Positions 51,254-55,750 of a stretch of 64,000 nucleotides of DNA are shown here, piece after piece. This DNA is from Crocinitomicaceae bacterium (GTDB lineage Bacteria; Bacteroidota; Bacteroidia; Flavobacteriales_D; Crocinitomicaceae). The stretch lies in the NCBI GenBank assembly GCA_018402525.1, contig JAGYIR010000011.1:124001-188000 (forward strand), read 5' to 3'. Under the pieces are notes generated by a model that saw only the letters and a list, made by a program, of their open reading frames with translations, made no database searches and was not told where the DNA came from. Each line of letters begins with the position of its first letter. Positions within the stretch are counted from its first letter, which is position 1. The translations under genes and the position numbers were made by a program.

Positions 51254-52150
51254 ATGAAACAAATGAGATTTAAACTTCTACTAAGTTCGTTTGCAATTGC
51301 AGCGGTGCTTGTCTCTTGTGGCGAAAGTACAGATGACACGCAAAATGTTATCGACGATTCAATAATTGATGAAAACAGTGCATTCAACACTGTTTTTGAA
51401 GGAAAGATATTTAGTATTCCTTCCCCTGTTCAAACTGCATATTTGATAAAACAATTGGATTTACCATTTGATGAATCGTTACTCAATAAGAACTCAAATG
51501 TTAGTGCTTACATTAAAGAATATCATCAAGCACTTAATCTCGGGATTTATGGAACCGATGTCGGCTACTCCTCAATGTATGAACAAAAGGATGTAACGAT
51601 GAAATATTTATCATCTGTGGAGAAATTAACTTCTCAACTGGGATTAGATATTGCCTTTGACAATGAATTTTTAAAGCGTTTTGAAAACAATAACAACAAC
51701 AAAGATTCAATGCTTGTTATCATGTCAGAAGCTTATCGCAAATCAGATAACTTCTTGAAACAATCGAATAGAAAATCAACTTCTGCGTTGATTTTAACTG
51801 GTGGATGGATTGAATCTATCTACTTTGCTAGTAAGTTGAACAAGAAGAAGAAAAATAAGGAAGTTGAGAAGCGCATCGGTGAACAAAAGCAATCACTAAA
51901 CTCTATTATTGACATTTTAAGTGAGTATAACGAAGATAATCAAAATGATGCATTGATTGCTGAGATGAAGGATTTGAAGGTTTCATTTGACAAAATCAAA
52001 TTAAACTATCAATACGAAGCTCCAGACATCAATAAGGAGAAAAAAGAAATGACCTTCAATCACTCACTTGAAATTGAGATTGATGAAAAGGTTCTTTCTG
52101 AAATTGAAACGAAAATTGAAGCAATTAGATCAAACATTATAAAAGGATAA
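51254..52150 (+). CDS. Lipoprotein of unknown function, first gene of the TerB-ABCG module
   Basis: 298 residues from ATG 51254 (ATG 51263 possible); the GTG at 51203 would add 17 residues with no signal sequence. A signal peptide ends in the lipobox LVSC, so it is a lipoprotein. The mature protein is helical, with a conserved-looking block FSIPSPVQTAYLIKQLDL near residue 60, a tyrosine-rich ALNLGIYGTDVGYSSMYEQ segment and a lysine-rich helix. I recognise the pattern as a recurrent Bacteroidota hypothetical family with no assigned role. The next gene begins 3 bases after its stop. Confidence 0.65.
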   Translation: MKQMRFKLLLSSFAIAAVLVSCGESTDDTQNVIDDSIIDENSAFNTVFEGKIFSIPSPVQTAYLIKQLDLPFDESLLNKNSNVSAYIKEYHQALNLGIYGTDVGYSSMYEQKDVTMKYLSSVEKLTSQLGLDIAFDNEFLKRFENNNNNKDSMLVIMSEAYRKSDNFLKQSNRKSTSALILTGGWIESIYFASKLNKKKKNKEVEKRIGEQKQSLNSIIDILSEYNEDNQNDALIAEMKDLKVSFDKIKLNYQYEAPDINKEKKEMTFNHSLEIEIDEKVLSEIETKIEAIRSNIIKG

Positions 52151-52153
52151 GCA

Positions 52154-52582
52154 ATGAAATTATTTTTAATTATAGGTATAGTAGCGTTTGTCTCACTTAA
52201 TTCAGTTAACGCGCAAGATTGCGAAGGTATAGTTCGTACATGTGAAGATTTACTCAAAAAGGATACAAAAGGGAAGGATTTTATTTCTGACGGACAAGTG
52301 TACACGGCTTTTCTAGACCGCGAGAAGGCTGAGTTTAAAACAACTTTCTTTGGTGGAACGACGTATCGAATTGCTGCAAGTGGTGGTTCAAAAGAGAACT
52401 ACATCATCTTCACAATTAAAGATCCAGACGGAAATATACTCTTCTCGAACAGAAACTATAAAAACTCACCTTATTGGGATTTTAACGTAAAGGAGAGTCT
52501 TCCAGTAACGATTGAGACAGAGTTTGACCTTGACTTGAAAGTTTCAGGTTGTGCTGTAATGCTCATCGGTTTCAGAAAGTAA
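52154..52582 (+). CDS. Small secreted protein of unknown function, second gene of the module
   Basis: 142 residues with a signal peptide ending about NSVNAQ (20). The rest is predicted to be a beta-sandwich, with FFGGTTYRIAASGGSKENY and PDGNILFSNRNYKNSPYWDF in the middle and a terminal CAVMLIGFRK. The two cysteines near the start of the mature protein (DCEGIVRTCEDLL) could form a disulfide and a further Cys sits near the end. It is 3 bases from the lipoprotein and 24 bases before the ABC exporter, consistent with one operon. Likely a periplasmic partner of the exporter; that is inference. Confidence 0.62.
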   Translation: MKLFLIIGIVAFVSLNSVNAQDCEGIVRTCEDLLKKDTKGKDFISDGQVYTAFLDREKAEFKTTFFGGTTYRIAASGGSKENYIIFTIKDPDGNILFSNRNYKNSPYWDFNVKESLPVTIETEFDLDLKVSGCAVMLIGFRK

Positions 52583-52606
52583 TTGAATTAATATCCAGTT
52601 GATTGA

Positions 52607-55600
52607 ATGAGTGAGAGAATTCTTCGGGCACTGATGCAGCTATTCGCAATTATTGCGAAAGTTGATGAAGTAGACCATGAGAAAGAAGAATCACAAGAAA
52701 TTCAAAGTACGAAGGGAAGACAGATTATTGAGTCCTTTCTTAAATCCGAATTGAGTTCGGCAGATGTCGATAATTACATTGAGGTATTTGATAATTTCTT
52801 AAAGGAAACACGGGGGAAATTATACTCTAAAAATAGAGATCAAAAACGAACTTCCCTTCACTCTGTAAAAATTTTACGGATTTGTGATCAAATCAATAAG
52901 GAACTCACGCAACGTCAAAAAGTCATTGTACTTATTCGAATTTTTGAGTTTATCGACAGCGATAACCAATTGTCCGAAAACGAACTTAAATTTATTCAAA
53001 CTGTTTCTGATTCATTTCATATCAGTGAAAAGGAGTTTGAAACAATTAAGAATTTTATTGCAGAAGACGGAACCTATTTTGTCGATGCACCTGAACACAT
53101 CTACTATTGCGCAAAGCAAAGCAGTGAGTTTAAAGAAGCAGTCGTTGAAGTAATTGAAGGTCTTGATGCACCGATTCACGTACTACATGTTAGGAGTGTC
53201 AAAACGTTATTTTTCAGGTATTACGGAAACGATGAACTCTATATAAATGGCCAAATTGTTGATACCAAGCGAACGCATGTCTTTAATATTGGCTCCACGC
53301 TTAGAACAGGTAAAAGCAGTCAACTTTTTTATAGCGACTTAGTCTCAAAACTGTCTAAGGAAATAAATACAACTCCCATCAGTCTTGAAGTTAACCATGT
53401 TTCCCTTGAATTTAACACTGGAGAAAATGCAATTAAAGATATTCACTTTGGGACGAACTCGGGAAACCTTATCGGCATTATGGGGGGCTCCGGTACAGGG
53501 AAAACGACGCTTTTAAATGTTTTGAACGGTAGACTTACGCCAACGAAGGGTGAAGTGCTTATCAATGGCATCGACTTGCATAAAAATGGAAAATTGCTGG
53601 AAGGTGTTATCGGCTATGTTGACCAAAATGACGTTCTAAACGAAGAGTTAACTGTGTATCAAAACTTGTATTTCAGTGCAAAACTGAGTATGGGTGGCTT
53701 GAATAAAATTCAAATTATTCGTAAAACTATAGAGTTACTAAAAAGTCTTGGTCTTTATGAAATTCGTTTTCTGAAAGTGGGATCTGTGCTTGAAAAGGTC
53801 ATCTCTGGTGGTCAACGAAAGCGATTAAATATTGCATTGGAATTGATTCGAGAACCGTCAATTCTGTTCATTGACGAACCTACTTCTGGGCTTTCTAGTA
53901 GAGATTCCGACAACATCATTGATCTTTTAAAAGAACTTTCTCTTCGAGGCAAGCTCATTTTTGCTGTCATTCATCAACCTTCCTCAAATATTTTTAAATT
54001 ATTTGATCGTTTGATTATTCTGGATCAAGGTGGACTTCCCATCTATAACGGAATTCCAATGAATGCCATTGTTCATTTCAAAACATTTTCTTACAAAGGA
54101 AATTCCCACGAGCGTGAATGTGGTTTGTGTGGAAATGTAAACCCAGAACAAATTTTCAATCTGATTGATGCGAAAATTGTCGATGAATTTGGTAACGAAA
54201 CGAATGTACGAAAAAAGACACCGCAAGATTGGAACAAAGTACACCGAAAAAACCGAGTGGAATACTCCATTAAAAAAGAAACCGTTGCCCCTACCTCTAA
54301 CATTAAGTTACCGCATCGTTTTATTCAGTTTATCACCTATTTCGTACGTGACGTATTTAGCAAGATTTCGAACATGCAATATGTCCTTATCAATGTATTA
54401 ATAGCGCCGGTTCTTGCAGTGGTCCTTTCTTATTTTATCAAATACTATGGCTGGTCAGACAAAGGCATGTCGTATACGTTTTATAACAATGAGAACATTC
54501 CACAGTACCTATTTATTATAGTAATTGTATCAATATTCTTAGGCTTGACGGTAGCTGCTGAAGAAATTCACCGCGATAAGAAAATAATTGCACGAGAACG
54601 TTTTATTAACCTTTCTAGAAATAGTTACTTGCTGTCGAAAATCGCCATCTTATTTATCATTTCTGGTGTTCAATCACTTTTGTTTGTTGTGATCGGTAAC
54701 AGTATTTTAGATATAAAAGGAATGTGGTTGGTTTTTTGGATTGTGATGTTTTCTTCTGCTTGCCTGTCGAACCTAATGGGGTTGATTATTTCCAGCACCT
54801 TTAATTCTGCTAAAGTTATCTACATAGTTATACCATTGCTCATAATCCCACAATTGTTGTTCAGTGGTGTGATTGTTAAGTTTGATAAACTTCATCCTTC
54901 ACTCTCGAATGCCACAAAAGTACCATGGGTTGGTAATTTGATGGTCTCTCGTTGGGCCTATGAGGCATTGACTGTTGAGCAAGCAACCCAGAATGAGTTT
55001 CAAAAAAGCTTCCTTCAGTATGAAATTGATAAAACACATGCCGCTTGGAAAAAGGATTATTGGACAGCGGAAATAAAAAAGCAGTTGAGTATCATTGACG
55101 ACGAAAAATCAACAGTGCAAGCCAAGCAAAAAGCAATTGATGTTATTTCAACAGAAATATCTGAAGAAGAGAAGGAATGGGGAAATTTCAAATGCAAAGA
55201 TTGCTTTTCTGGGTCTGGAAAAACTCCTAAGATCAACCGTCAGAGCGTTATTTATTTTGTTACCAAAATTAGAGATCAGCATATTTTGAACCTAAGTAAA
55301 GTGACTTCAGATATTAATAAGAAGATTGATTCAATGGGAAGTGAAGCGTACATCGCTTTAGAAAAGGAGTACGTGAATGAAGCGCTTATGATGATTGTAA
55401 AGAACAAATTGGAAAGTGACAAATTGATTGTGGATAAGGGCCAAATTTACCGAAACGATAATCCCATCTTCAACATTCCCAAAAATGTTTCATTCCTAGG
55501 ATCTCACTTCTACGCTCCATACAAAACATTGTTCGGAGTAAAAATGACGACTTTTCAAGCCAATATCATTGTGATTTGGTTCATGTCCCTAATTACCTAC

Positions 55601-55660
55601 ATCCTACTCTACTTCGACGTTTTCAAAAGAGCACTTGAAGGTTTTAAGAAAAAAGTGTAA
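52607..55660 (+). CDS. TerB-like/ABCG-type fused ABC exporter
   Basis: 1017 residues in order: a helical TerB-like domain (1-170), a small beta domain (about 185-260, ELYINGQIVDTKRTHVF), an ABC ATPase (about 265-490) and a six-helix membrane domain (about 580-1010). The ATPase has Walker A MGGSGTGKTT near 291, signature ISGGQRKRLN and Walker B SILFIDEPTSG. This is the half-transporter order of ABCG proteins (ATPase first). A CGLCGNVNPEQ motif near 505 may bind zinc. The loop between helices 5 and 6 is large (about 220 residues) and carries FKCKDC. It ends the three-gene operon. Substrate unknown. Confidence 0.88.
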   Translation: MSERILRALMQLFAIIAKVDEVDHEKEESQEIQSTKGRQIIESFLKSELSSADVDNYIEVFDNFLKETRGKLYSKNRDQKRTSLHSVKILRICDQINKELTQRQKVIVLIRIFEFIDSDNQLSENELKFIQTVSDSFHISEKEFETIKNFIAEDGTYFVDAPEHIYYCAKQSSEFKEAVVEVIEGLDAPIHVLHVRSVKTLFFRYYGNDELYINGQIVDTKRTHVFNIGSTLRTGKSSQLFYSDLVSKLSKEINTTPISLEVNHVSLEFNTGENAIKDIHFGTNSGNLIGIMGGSGTGKTTLLNVLNGRLTPTKGEVLINGIDLHKNGKLLEGVIGYVDQNDVLNEELTVYQNLYFSAKLSMGGLNKIQIIRKTIELLKSLGLYEIRFLKVGSVLEKVISGGQRKRLNIALELIREPSILFIDEPTSGLSSRDSDNIIDLLKELSLRGKLIFAVIHQPSSNIFKLFDRLIILDQGGLPIYNGIPMNAIVHFKTFSYKGNSHERECGLCGNVNPEQIFNLIDAKIVDEFGNETNVRKKTPQDWNKVHRKNRVEYSIKKETVAPTSNIKLPHRFIQFITYFVRDVFSKISNMQYVLINVLIAPVLAVVLSYFIKYYGWSDKGMSYTFYNNENIPQYLFIIVIVSIFLGLTVAAEEIHRDKKIIARERFINLSRNSYLLSKIAILFIISGVQSLLFVVIGNSILDIKGMWLVFWIVMFSSACLSNLMGLIISSTFNSAKVIYIVIPLLIIPQLLFSGVIVKFDKLHPSLSNATKVPWVGNLMVSRWAYEALTVEQATQNEFQKSFLQYEIDKTHAAWKKDYWTAEIKKQLSIIDDEKSTVQAKQKAIDVISTEISEEEKEWGNFKCKDCFSGSGKTPKINRQSVIYFVTKIRDQHILNLSKVTSDINKKIDSMGSEAYIALEKEYVNEALMMIVKNKLESDKLIVDKGQIYRNDNPIFNIPKNVSFLGSHFYAPYKTLFGVKMTTFQANIIVIWFMSLITYILLYFDVFKRALEGFKKKV

Positions 55661-55684: not shown

Positions 55685-55748
55685 CTAACTCTGCTGACTC
55701 TGCTGAGCCTGTCGAAGTATATCGAATGGGGGTAGCTGAGCTTATCGA
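55685..55748. repeat. REP-like intergenic element (copy C)
   Basis: It contains GAGCCTGTCGA at 55705-55715 and GAGCTTATCGA at 55738-55748, with two copies of ACTCTGCTGA just upstream. It can fold with GTAGCT/AGCTAC arms around the second copy. It occupies the space between two convergent genes, the ABC exporter and fabG, and resembles the elements at 8085 and 9657. Confidence 0.5.
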
Positions 55749-55750
55749 AG

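Follow-up and report, generated by a model that had tools for sequence, protein, structure and literature searches.

A TerB-like/ABCG fusion exporter that travels with two envelope proteins in aquatic Bacteroidota and, in some relatives, adjoins a SiaABC-type switch

Within a 64,000-nucleotide stretch of the genome of a Crocinitomicaceae bacterium (hereafter the window), positions 51254-55660 of the forward strand encode, in order, a lipoprotein (gene 1), a small secreted protein (gene 2), and a fusion of a TerB-like domain to an ABCG-type transporter (gene 3). These three genes travel together across a large group of aquatic Bacteroidota. In a considerable share of relatives, genes for a SiaABC-type partner switch, which has a different target in Pseudomonas, lie beside the exporter gene, which suggests that bacteria may use this switch to turn the exporter on and off.

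Features of the three encoded proteins

Genes 1 and 2 are separated by 3 bp and genes 2 and 3 by 24 bp; the ORF coordinates thus bear out the original prediction, made from the sequence alone, of three open reading frames with this spacing. We infer that the genes form one operon and are co-transcribed.

Gene 1 (51254..52150, +) encodes a 298-aa lipoprotein, predicted to be helical with a C-terminal beta hairpin (model pLDDT 82.4). Its lipobox, LVSC (51308..51319, +), contains Cys22, which is invariant in the 48 rows of alignment A4 (the window protein and 47 of the 72 loci available). Gene 1 had no Pfam match at E ≤ 1, only NCBIfam matches far below cut-off, and no match to PDB sequences better than E 0.013. 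Its model matched nothing in Foldseek at better than E 0.69, and the best VIA match had a Z score of 6.9. As modeled, gene 1 is a helical lipoprotein with no confident match to a known fold.

Gene 2 (52154..52582, +) encodes a 142-aa exported protein that begins with a hydrophobic helix. A single sub-threshold match was found in Pfam (Mucin_bdg, E 0.15) and none in NCBIfam. The model of gene 2 (pLDDT 87.9) matched 5azw_A in Foldseek (E 1.7e-5) and gave VIA Z scores of 8.3-8.7, including 9ues_B (Z 8.7 over 95 residues, rmsd 2.9). The predicted fold resembles beta sandwiches of the GOLD, PPC, and collagen-binding type (jelly-roll type), with 9-16% identity in the leading rows and Z scores close to those that unrelated folds commonly give. 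This likeness is at the level of the fold, without membership at the sequence level, and does not imply function. BspA_V (5dz8_A), which gene 2 matched by sequence (E 3.8e-5), was absent among the Foldseek and VIA matches listed. The model is best read, tentatively, as a GOLD/PPC-like periplasmic protein.

Gene 3 (52607..55660, +) encodes a 1017-aa protein, identified from its ORF, Pfam, and PDB sequence matches. As originally described, a TerB-like domain (residues 9-148; 52631..53050, +; PF05099, 29.6 bits against a cut-off of 24.4; alignment A3) is fused to a transporter of ABCG order, in which the nucleotide-binding domain (NBD) precedes PF01061. A conserved block in alignment A3, possibly a small beta domain, follows at residues ~185-250 (53159..53356, +). 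The NBD (residues ~259-482; 53381..54052, +) carries a Walker A motif, an SGGQRKR signature, a Walker B motif, and an H-loop; Pfam places ABC_tran at residues 277-427 and ABC2_membrane (PF01061) at residues 574-789. SGGQRKR, DEP, and HQP are present in 102 of 102 gene-3 rows, of which the 30 wider rows were chosen by the signature pattern, so that conservation of the signature is tested by the 72 near rows only.

Between the NBD and the first hydrophobic stretch lies a cysteine pair, CGLC (residues 505-508; 54119..54130, +), at the place originally noted. It is a family-wide feature, kept in 99% of the 72 near rows and 93% of the 30 wider rows. According to hydropathy (with segments merged), the membrane part consists of five hydrophobic stretches, a loop of about 220 residues (residues ~761-981; 54887..55549, +), and one more stretch. 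The CKDC motif described for this loop is present in the window protein (residues 863-866; 55193..55204, +), but we rejected it as a feature of the gene-3 family. It is lineage-specific: Cys863 and Cys866 occur in 50% and 51% of the 72 nearest rows and in 3% and 7% of the wider rows.

When gene 3 was searched against PDB sequences, ABCG1 was the best match, over the ATPase part, with PDR5-type proteins and ABCG2 below it; the ABCG2 match spans residues 286-788. Its N-terminus matched nothing in the PDB sequences at E ≤ 1. The score against the NCBIfam pigment precursor permease family TIGR00955 was 245.7 bits (cut-off 736.35), and by this comparison gene 3 is related to that subfamily but outside it. 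Gene 3 shares the NBD-before-TMD order and ABC2_membrane with the half-transporters ABCG1 and ABCG2 (PDB 7r8c, 5nj3). Unlike eukaryotic ABCG proteins, it has a TerB-like N-terminal extension, a conserved CGLC pair in the linker, and the ~220-residue loop. The best reading of the sequence is an inner-membrane ABCG-type exporter with intact catalytic motifs, which fits the role in envelope export proposed at the outset. The region 3' of gene 3 gave no sign of a structured RNA, as it folded no better than shuffled sequences (z -0.20).

Co-occurrence and spread of the three families

A lack of co-occurrence in other genomes had been set beforehand as the outcome that would refute a three-gene system; the three families were found to co-occur, mostly as adjacent genes. 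Among named-genome loci, 72 of 80 have genes 1-2-3 in the same order and on the same strand, and genes 1 and 2 are absent at the other 8; these loci are near relatives, because they are the best 80 of 546 confirmed candidates. Within the window's genus, the presence of genes 1 and 3 is nearly all-or-none (22 genomes with both, 1 with gene 3 only, and 11 with neither, tallied by reading). In a sample of the order (n = 199; counts taken from the listings and then repeated by script), 136 genomes carry both gene 1 and gene 3, 2 have gene 3 only, 19 gene 1 only, and 42 neither. The corresponding counts for genes 2 and 3, from a search with a wider gene-2 profile, are 137, 1, 17 (gene 2 only), and 44. 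Genes 1 and 2 are also found paired without the exporter and are therefore not tied to it alone.

The gene-2 alignment A1 includes four rows placed by position only (L085, L086, L091, and L092), which match by construction. With a profile lacking these rows, L085, L092, L199, L091, and L202 still matched (E 8e-16 to 4e-4), and L086, L206, and L207 did not; the assignment of gene 2 at L206 and L207 thus rests on the wider profile. Alignment A5 comprises the window protein together with 54 of the 72 loci available.

In a sample of the phylum, the gene-3 N-terminus was detected in 5 of 198 genomes, two of which are the window genome and, from the same order, G044; the family therefore seems to centre on the window's order and on family f19. 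Five additional f19 copies of gene 3 all lack an adjacent SiaC; two have gene 1 only and three have neither gene 1 nor gene 2. Around the divergent f9 copies of gene 3, no gene 1 or 2 was detected within 3 kb.

SiaC and SiaB in gene-3 genomes

Of 60 genomes examined, 44 have gene 3, and in 13 of these SiaC lies directly next to it (tallied by reading; in one of the 44, G043, gene 3 is divided between two contigs), against an expected value of 0.05, computed with 137 SiaC matches (136 by the sum of the listing). The remaining 31 have no SiaC next to gene 3. A tally that includes hand-picked loci has 74 loci with genes 1-2 upstream of gene 3 and no SiaC; some of the picks were made on account of a SiaC or gene 1 already noticed there, and the tally is biased as a rate, the count of 13 of 44 being less so. 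The ORF caller missed a second SiaC at L091, which the listing of SiaC matches includes.

Where SiaC adjoins gene 3, it is usually accompanied by SiaB (not detected beside 4 of 21 such SiaC genes) and sometimes by a SpoIIE phosphatase and Che genes. The phospho-acceptor Thr of the motif YFNT[SA]S is kept in 20 of these 21 SiaC proteins, the exception being L206; L227 keeps the Thr within NTST instead of NTSS. The same genes occur in two arrangements, of which one also lines up SpoIIE, CheB, and CheR. SpoIIE is linked to SiaBC and gene 3 at L091, L092, L172, L199, L207, and L202, and none was found at L209. SiaC-linked rows are spread over several deep branches of a gene-3 tree of 57 rows, in which the 80 near loci are represented by every fourth one plus those with SiaC or without genes 1 and 2, with rows shorter than 900 aa dropped.

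In the window genome, SiaB-SiaC lies on another contig, unlinked to gene 3. It adjoins a methyltransferase-ZIP pair, and the same pair flanks the gene-3-adjacent SiaC at 11 other loci. This SiaC (C5; PF09345, 148.6 bits) matches Pseudomonas aeruginosa SiaC (6kko_C, E 5e-18), and the alignment keeps NTSS with its phospho-acceptor Thr. SiaB (PF19788, 130.3 bits), located 18 bp from SiaC, matches P. aeruginosa SiaB (6kko_A, E 8e-12). The genome has 7 SpoIIE and 2 DUF6272 matches. No GGDEF protein was detected in this genome (98.3% complete) by a search whose control was positive in 8 of 14 genomes, and a SiaD-type target therefore appears to be missing. Across the genus, SiaC is weakly associated with gene 3 (19 of 23 genomes with gene 3 vs 5 of 11 without; p 0.045). 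Because the SiaB-SiaC block persists in those 5 gene-3-less genomes, SiaC has, or had, other uses.

Possible control of the exporter by a partner switch

P. aeruginosa SiaC is a phospho-switch at T68 (PMC7647112), T68 phosphorylation prevents binding of SiaC to SiaD, and DUF1987 proteins are suggested to modulate adjacent proteins (PMC8457831). SiaABCD, as described there, shares with the loci studied here a SiaC with a conserved Thr, a SiaB-like kinase and, in linked relatives, a SpoIIE/PP2C-type phosphatase; it differs in that here a GGDEF output was not found and the neighbouring gene encodes a TerB-ABCG exporter accompanied by two envelope proteins. MlaFB is a STAS protein bound to an ABC ATPase in which a phosphomimic of an interface Thr of MlaB weakens binding, and its authors did not settle whether ABC transporters are under STAS-type regulation more widely and whether this acts by phosphorylation (PMC7367683). 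Our proposal is alike in making a STAS-like protein the controller of an ABC transporter. Mla, however, is a multi-subunit phospholipid system with a separate ATPase, whereas gene 3 fuses NBD and TMD (PF01061) in one chain, and unlike in MlaFB, a kinase and a phosphatase family accompany the STAS-like protein here. No link of TerB or SiaC to an ABC protein was found among the top-ranked matches in a literature collection that takes in only a minority of subscription papers; in this collection, one paper mentions DUF1987 and none mentions DUF6272.

We lean modestly towards an ABCG-type exporter that is gated by a SiaABC-type partner switch and works together with a lipoprotein and a periplasmic protein of GOLD/PPC-like fold. 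Gene 3 would reside in the inner membrane, probably as a homodimer, with the products of genes 2 and 1 as its envelope partners. SiaB would phosphorylate SiaC at the conserved Thr, and a SpoIIE-type phosphatase would take the phosphate off. Unphosphorylated SiaC would then bind the cytoplasmic part of gene 3, with the TerB-like N-terminal region as the likeliest site, and would thereby switch transport. The substrate is presumably lipid-like or amphipathic and would be exported. More tentatively, and with some doubt, the Thr phosphoswitch of SiaB, SpoIIE, and STAS-like SiaC may gate the exporter directly through the TerB-like domain and be fed in some genomes by CheA/CheB/CheR, so that signal-controlled export replaces c-di-GMP output. 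The original prediction had allowed for an envelope sensing system. Since the exporter is linked to SiaB, SiaC, and SpoIIE, and here and there to chemosensory genes as well, a linkage beyond the reach of that prediction, a sensing step, if there is one, fits the cytoplasm better than the loop.

Three other explanations were weighed. The exporter and its two accessory envelope proteins may not be regulated by SiaBC, which would then be a frequent neighbour, co-regulated, for example, by a shared envelope response. The lack of SiaC beside gene 3 in most near relatives and the persistence of SiaBC in gene-3-less genomes speak for this; linkage that occurs in different branches and takes two arrangements, together with the lack of a detected target of the known GGDEF type in the window genome, makes it unlikely. 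MacB and FtsEX are models for mechanotransmission ABC proteins. If gene 3 were such a signalling protein, its periplasmic loop, moved by ATP hydrolysis, would act on gene 2 and the lipoprotein, without export. The very large loop fits this, as do two tightly linked envelope proteins, one with a lipobox and one with a predicted binding-type fold, but the TMD is of the ABC-2/ABCG export type (PF01061; ABCG2 match) and the Pfam search listed no FtsX-type family for gene 3, which leaves this explanation improbable. An exporter for tellurite or metal stress, by analogy with the TerB name, is highly improbable: the TerB domain scores above cut-off and a ZIP-like gene stays beside SiaC, but at 29.6 bits the match is weak, and function follows from neither a domain name nor a neighbour.

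The partner-switched exporter that we favour would give a candidate role to three families that have none: a helical lipoprotein, a GOLD-like small protein, and a TerB-ABCG fusion. In this locus family, a STAS-like phosphoprotein, usually with a kinase and sometimes with a phosphatase, is encoded beside one ABC exporter. Because of this adjacency, both the question raised for MlaFB and the idea of DUF1987 proteins as modulators of adjacent proteins become directly testable.

Conservation of the three-gene module

The lipoprotein gene (gene 1, an open reading frame with a lipobox, 51254-52150), the gene for a small exported protein (gene 2, 52154-52582) and the gene for a TerB-ABCG fusion exporter (gene 3, 52607-55660) all lie on the plus strand, with gene 2 beginning 3 bases after gene 1 and gene 3 beginning 24 bases after gene 2. 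These ORF coordinates reproduce the positions and spacing of the original prediction. At 55703-55750 on the minus strand, between gene 3 and a convergent fabG-like gene, are two copies of CTTCGACAGGCTCAG, one with two mismatches (0.06 expected in the window).

Co-occurrence in other genomes, the check proposed with the original prediction, was borne out. Of 60 genomes, including the window genome, 43 carry gene 1, 41 carry gene 2 and 44 have a detected gene 3 N-terminus; the last count takes strong matches only (E < 1e-14), because the raw tally of 50 also counts another TerB-like protein that is matched weakly (E about 1e-5 to 1e-3). Gene 3 is present in every one of the 43 genomes with gene 1. 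The only remaining gene 3 genome, G032, has a gene 2 that stops at 70 residues and was probably shortened by the contig end. Within the window's genus, genes 1 and 3 occur together in 22 genomes, gene 3 only in 1 and neither in 11. In a sample of the order (199 genomes), gene 3 was present in 138, gene 2 in 154 and gene 1 in 155, with genes 1 and 3 both present in 136 and both absent in 42; the genus and order tests are uncorrected for kinship. A phylum sample yielded the gene 3 N-terminus at E <= 1e-6 in 5 of 198 genomes.

Gene order was compared in the best 80 of 546 loci, drawn from named, mostly metagenome-assembled genomes (Fluviicola, Crocinitomix, Brumimicrobium and Lishizhenia included). 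The order gene 1-gene 2-gene 3 on one strand was kept in 72 of these, where our own ORF calling gives intergenic gaps from -41 to 95 bases and from 3 to 126 bases, and where the outer neighbors vary; in the other 8, gene 3 lacks adjoining genes 1 and 2. The three genes are a real, conserved gene module.

Because gene 1-gene 2 pairs also occur without the exporter, adjoining a long ORF, these two genes may have an additional role. Such paralogous pairs are found at loci L081, L088, L090, L094, L096 and L191, where the adjoining ORF of 920-961 aa (truncated in L090, where the contig ends) looks, from its first residues, like DNA polymerase I. In genome G034 (L092:1832-16824), ORFs of 2215 aa, 319 aa and 942 aa, possibly a cell-surface cluster, lie between the exporter on one side and gene 1 with its small partner on the other.

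Domains and predicted folds

TerB, ABC_tran and ABC2_membrane were the domains above cut-off in gene 3. In a PDB sequence search, its top match was the ATPase part of ABCG1, and ABCG2 matched residues 286-788. The window genome contains no second full-length relative of gene 3; the 27 other matches are to ATPase regions, the exception being a weak one to the TerB part. Across 102 gene 3 sequences (72 near and 30 wider relatives, the latter chosen by signature pattern), the signature, Walker B DEP and H-loop HQP are invariant. The CGLC cysteine pair is retained in 99% of the near and 93% of the wider sequences, and the CKDC pair of the loop in about half and 3-7%, respectively.

No curated family searched matched gene 1 or gene 2 above cut-off. 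Gene 2 is modeled as a beta sandwich (mean pLDDT 87.9) whose nearest structural matches are GOLD domains (5azw_A, E 1.7e-5) together with PPC or collagen-binding type domains (9ues_B; VIA Z 8.7, 95 residues, rmsd 2.9). Since Z values of this size are common, the likeness of the predicted structure names a fold, not a function. At locus L086, the protein adjoining a gene 1 paralogue matches the Pfam GOLD family below threshold (E 0.065). The gene 1 model (pLDDT 82.4) shows a helical fold that ends in a C-terminal hairpin; a fold search with it gave no confident match.

Partner-switch genes beside the exporter and in the window genome

SiaC, the phosphoprotein (DUF1987) of a partner switch, directly adjoins gene 3 in 13 of 44 gene 3 genomes, with about 0.05 expected by chance in a position comparison. 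In G041, a GAF/PAS/SpoIIE protein, a DUF6272 protein and SiaC (the SiaC search lists two) come before the exporter, and gene 1 and a distant gene 2 relative come after it. Genome G244, from family f19, has the order CheR, CheB, GAF protein, SpoIIE sensor phosphatase, SiaB (the kinase), SiaC, gene 3, gene 1, gene 2. The gene line of G204 looks the same, a likeness resting on ORFs other than those in the CheB and GAF positions (CheR by Pfam; SpoIIE, SiaB, SiaC and genes 1-3 by our own models). In G331, the line starts with CheB, CheA, an ORF without a name and CheR; next are a response-regulator SpoIIE, two SiaB-like proteins, SiaC and gene 3, after which come gene 1, a gene 2 candidate, CheR, CheB, another SiaB-like protein and SpoIIE. 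At L207:123-14619, CheA/CheB/CheR, two SpoIIE and three SiaB-like genes surround the exporter module. At L144 and L163, a SiaB-like gene, a methyltransferase and ZIP adjoin gene 3, and SiaC was not detected beside it.

In a tally of 110 ORFs, a biased sample that does not give a rate, 81 had the arrangement gene 1-gene 2-gene 3 (7 with SiaC) and 5 had SiaC-gene 3-gene 1-gene 2 (two with gene 2 by a wider profile only). Because SiaC-linked rows spread over several deep branches of a quick 57-row gene 3 tree, with at least 6 changes, the SiaC link is either old with some losses or formed repeatedly.

On contig C5 of the window genome, the neighbors of SiaC and SiaB are a methyltransferase gene and a ZIP-like gene. 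This methyltransferase-ZIP pair also flanks the gene 3-adjacent SiaC in 11 loci, with SiaB detected in nine of them, and a further locus, L198, has ZIP only; judging from these shared flanks, the SiaB-SiaC pair appears to have split off from the exporter in the lineage of the window genome. The SiaC of this pair aligns to P. aeruginosa SiaC (6kko, 6k4f; E 5e-18) and retains the threonine that is phosphorylated there, as do 20 of 21 gene 3-adjacent SiaC proteins (exception, L206). The SiaB of the window genome matches P. aeruginosa SiaB (E 8e-12). A second SiaC of the window genome (L210:3481-3879; C5:53980-54378) has isoleucine in place of the phospho-acceptor threonine (NISS) and no SiaB detected next to it; isoleucine also stands at this site in the corresponding SiaC of five more genomes of the genus (L211-L215). 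The window genome also has 7 SpoIIE and 2 DUF6272 matches. It gave no GGDEF match, and therefore the known SiaD-type output is absent as far as the search shows.

A proposed switch for the exporter

The phosphorylation state of P. aeruginosa SiaC T68 is set by SiaA and SiaB (PMC7647112), and SiaC binds the SiaD stalk unless T68 phosphorylation blocks binding (PMC8457831); the authors of the latter suggest a role for DUF1987 proteins in modulating neighboring proteins. In MlaFB, an ABC ATPase is bound by a STAS protein, the interface contains a threonine, and whether phosphorylation regulates the complex is left open by the authors (PMC7367683). Based on the SiaC-SiaD and MlaFB precedents, we infer that SiaC would switch gene 3. 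Its docking site would, at a guess from position and conservation, be the TerB-like N-terminus.

Against this link, a strong-scoring SiaC is kept in 5 of the 11 genomes of the genus without gene 3, all five with the SiaB-SiaC-methyltransferase-ZIP block. The association of SiaC with gene 3 inside the genus is weak (P = 0.045, uncorrected for kinship), SiaC does not adjoin gene 3 in 31 of 44 gene 3 genomes, and five extra f19 copies of gene 3 have no SiaC beside them.

Among the literature matches listed, we found no description of a regulatory link between a SiaABC switch and an ABC exporter. The parts are of known kinds; what is new is that a SiaABC switch is paired with an ABC exporter.
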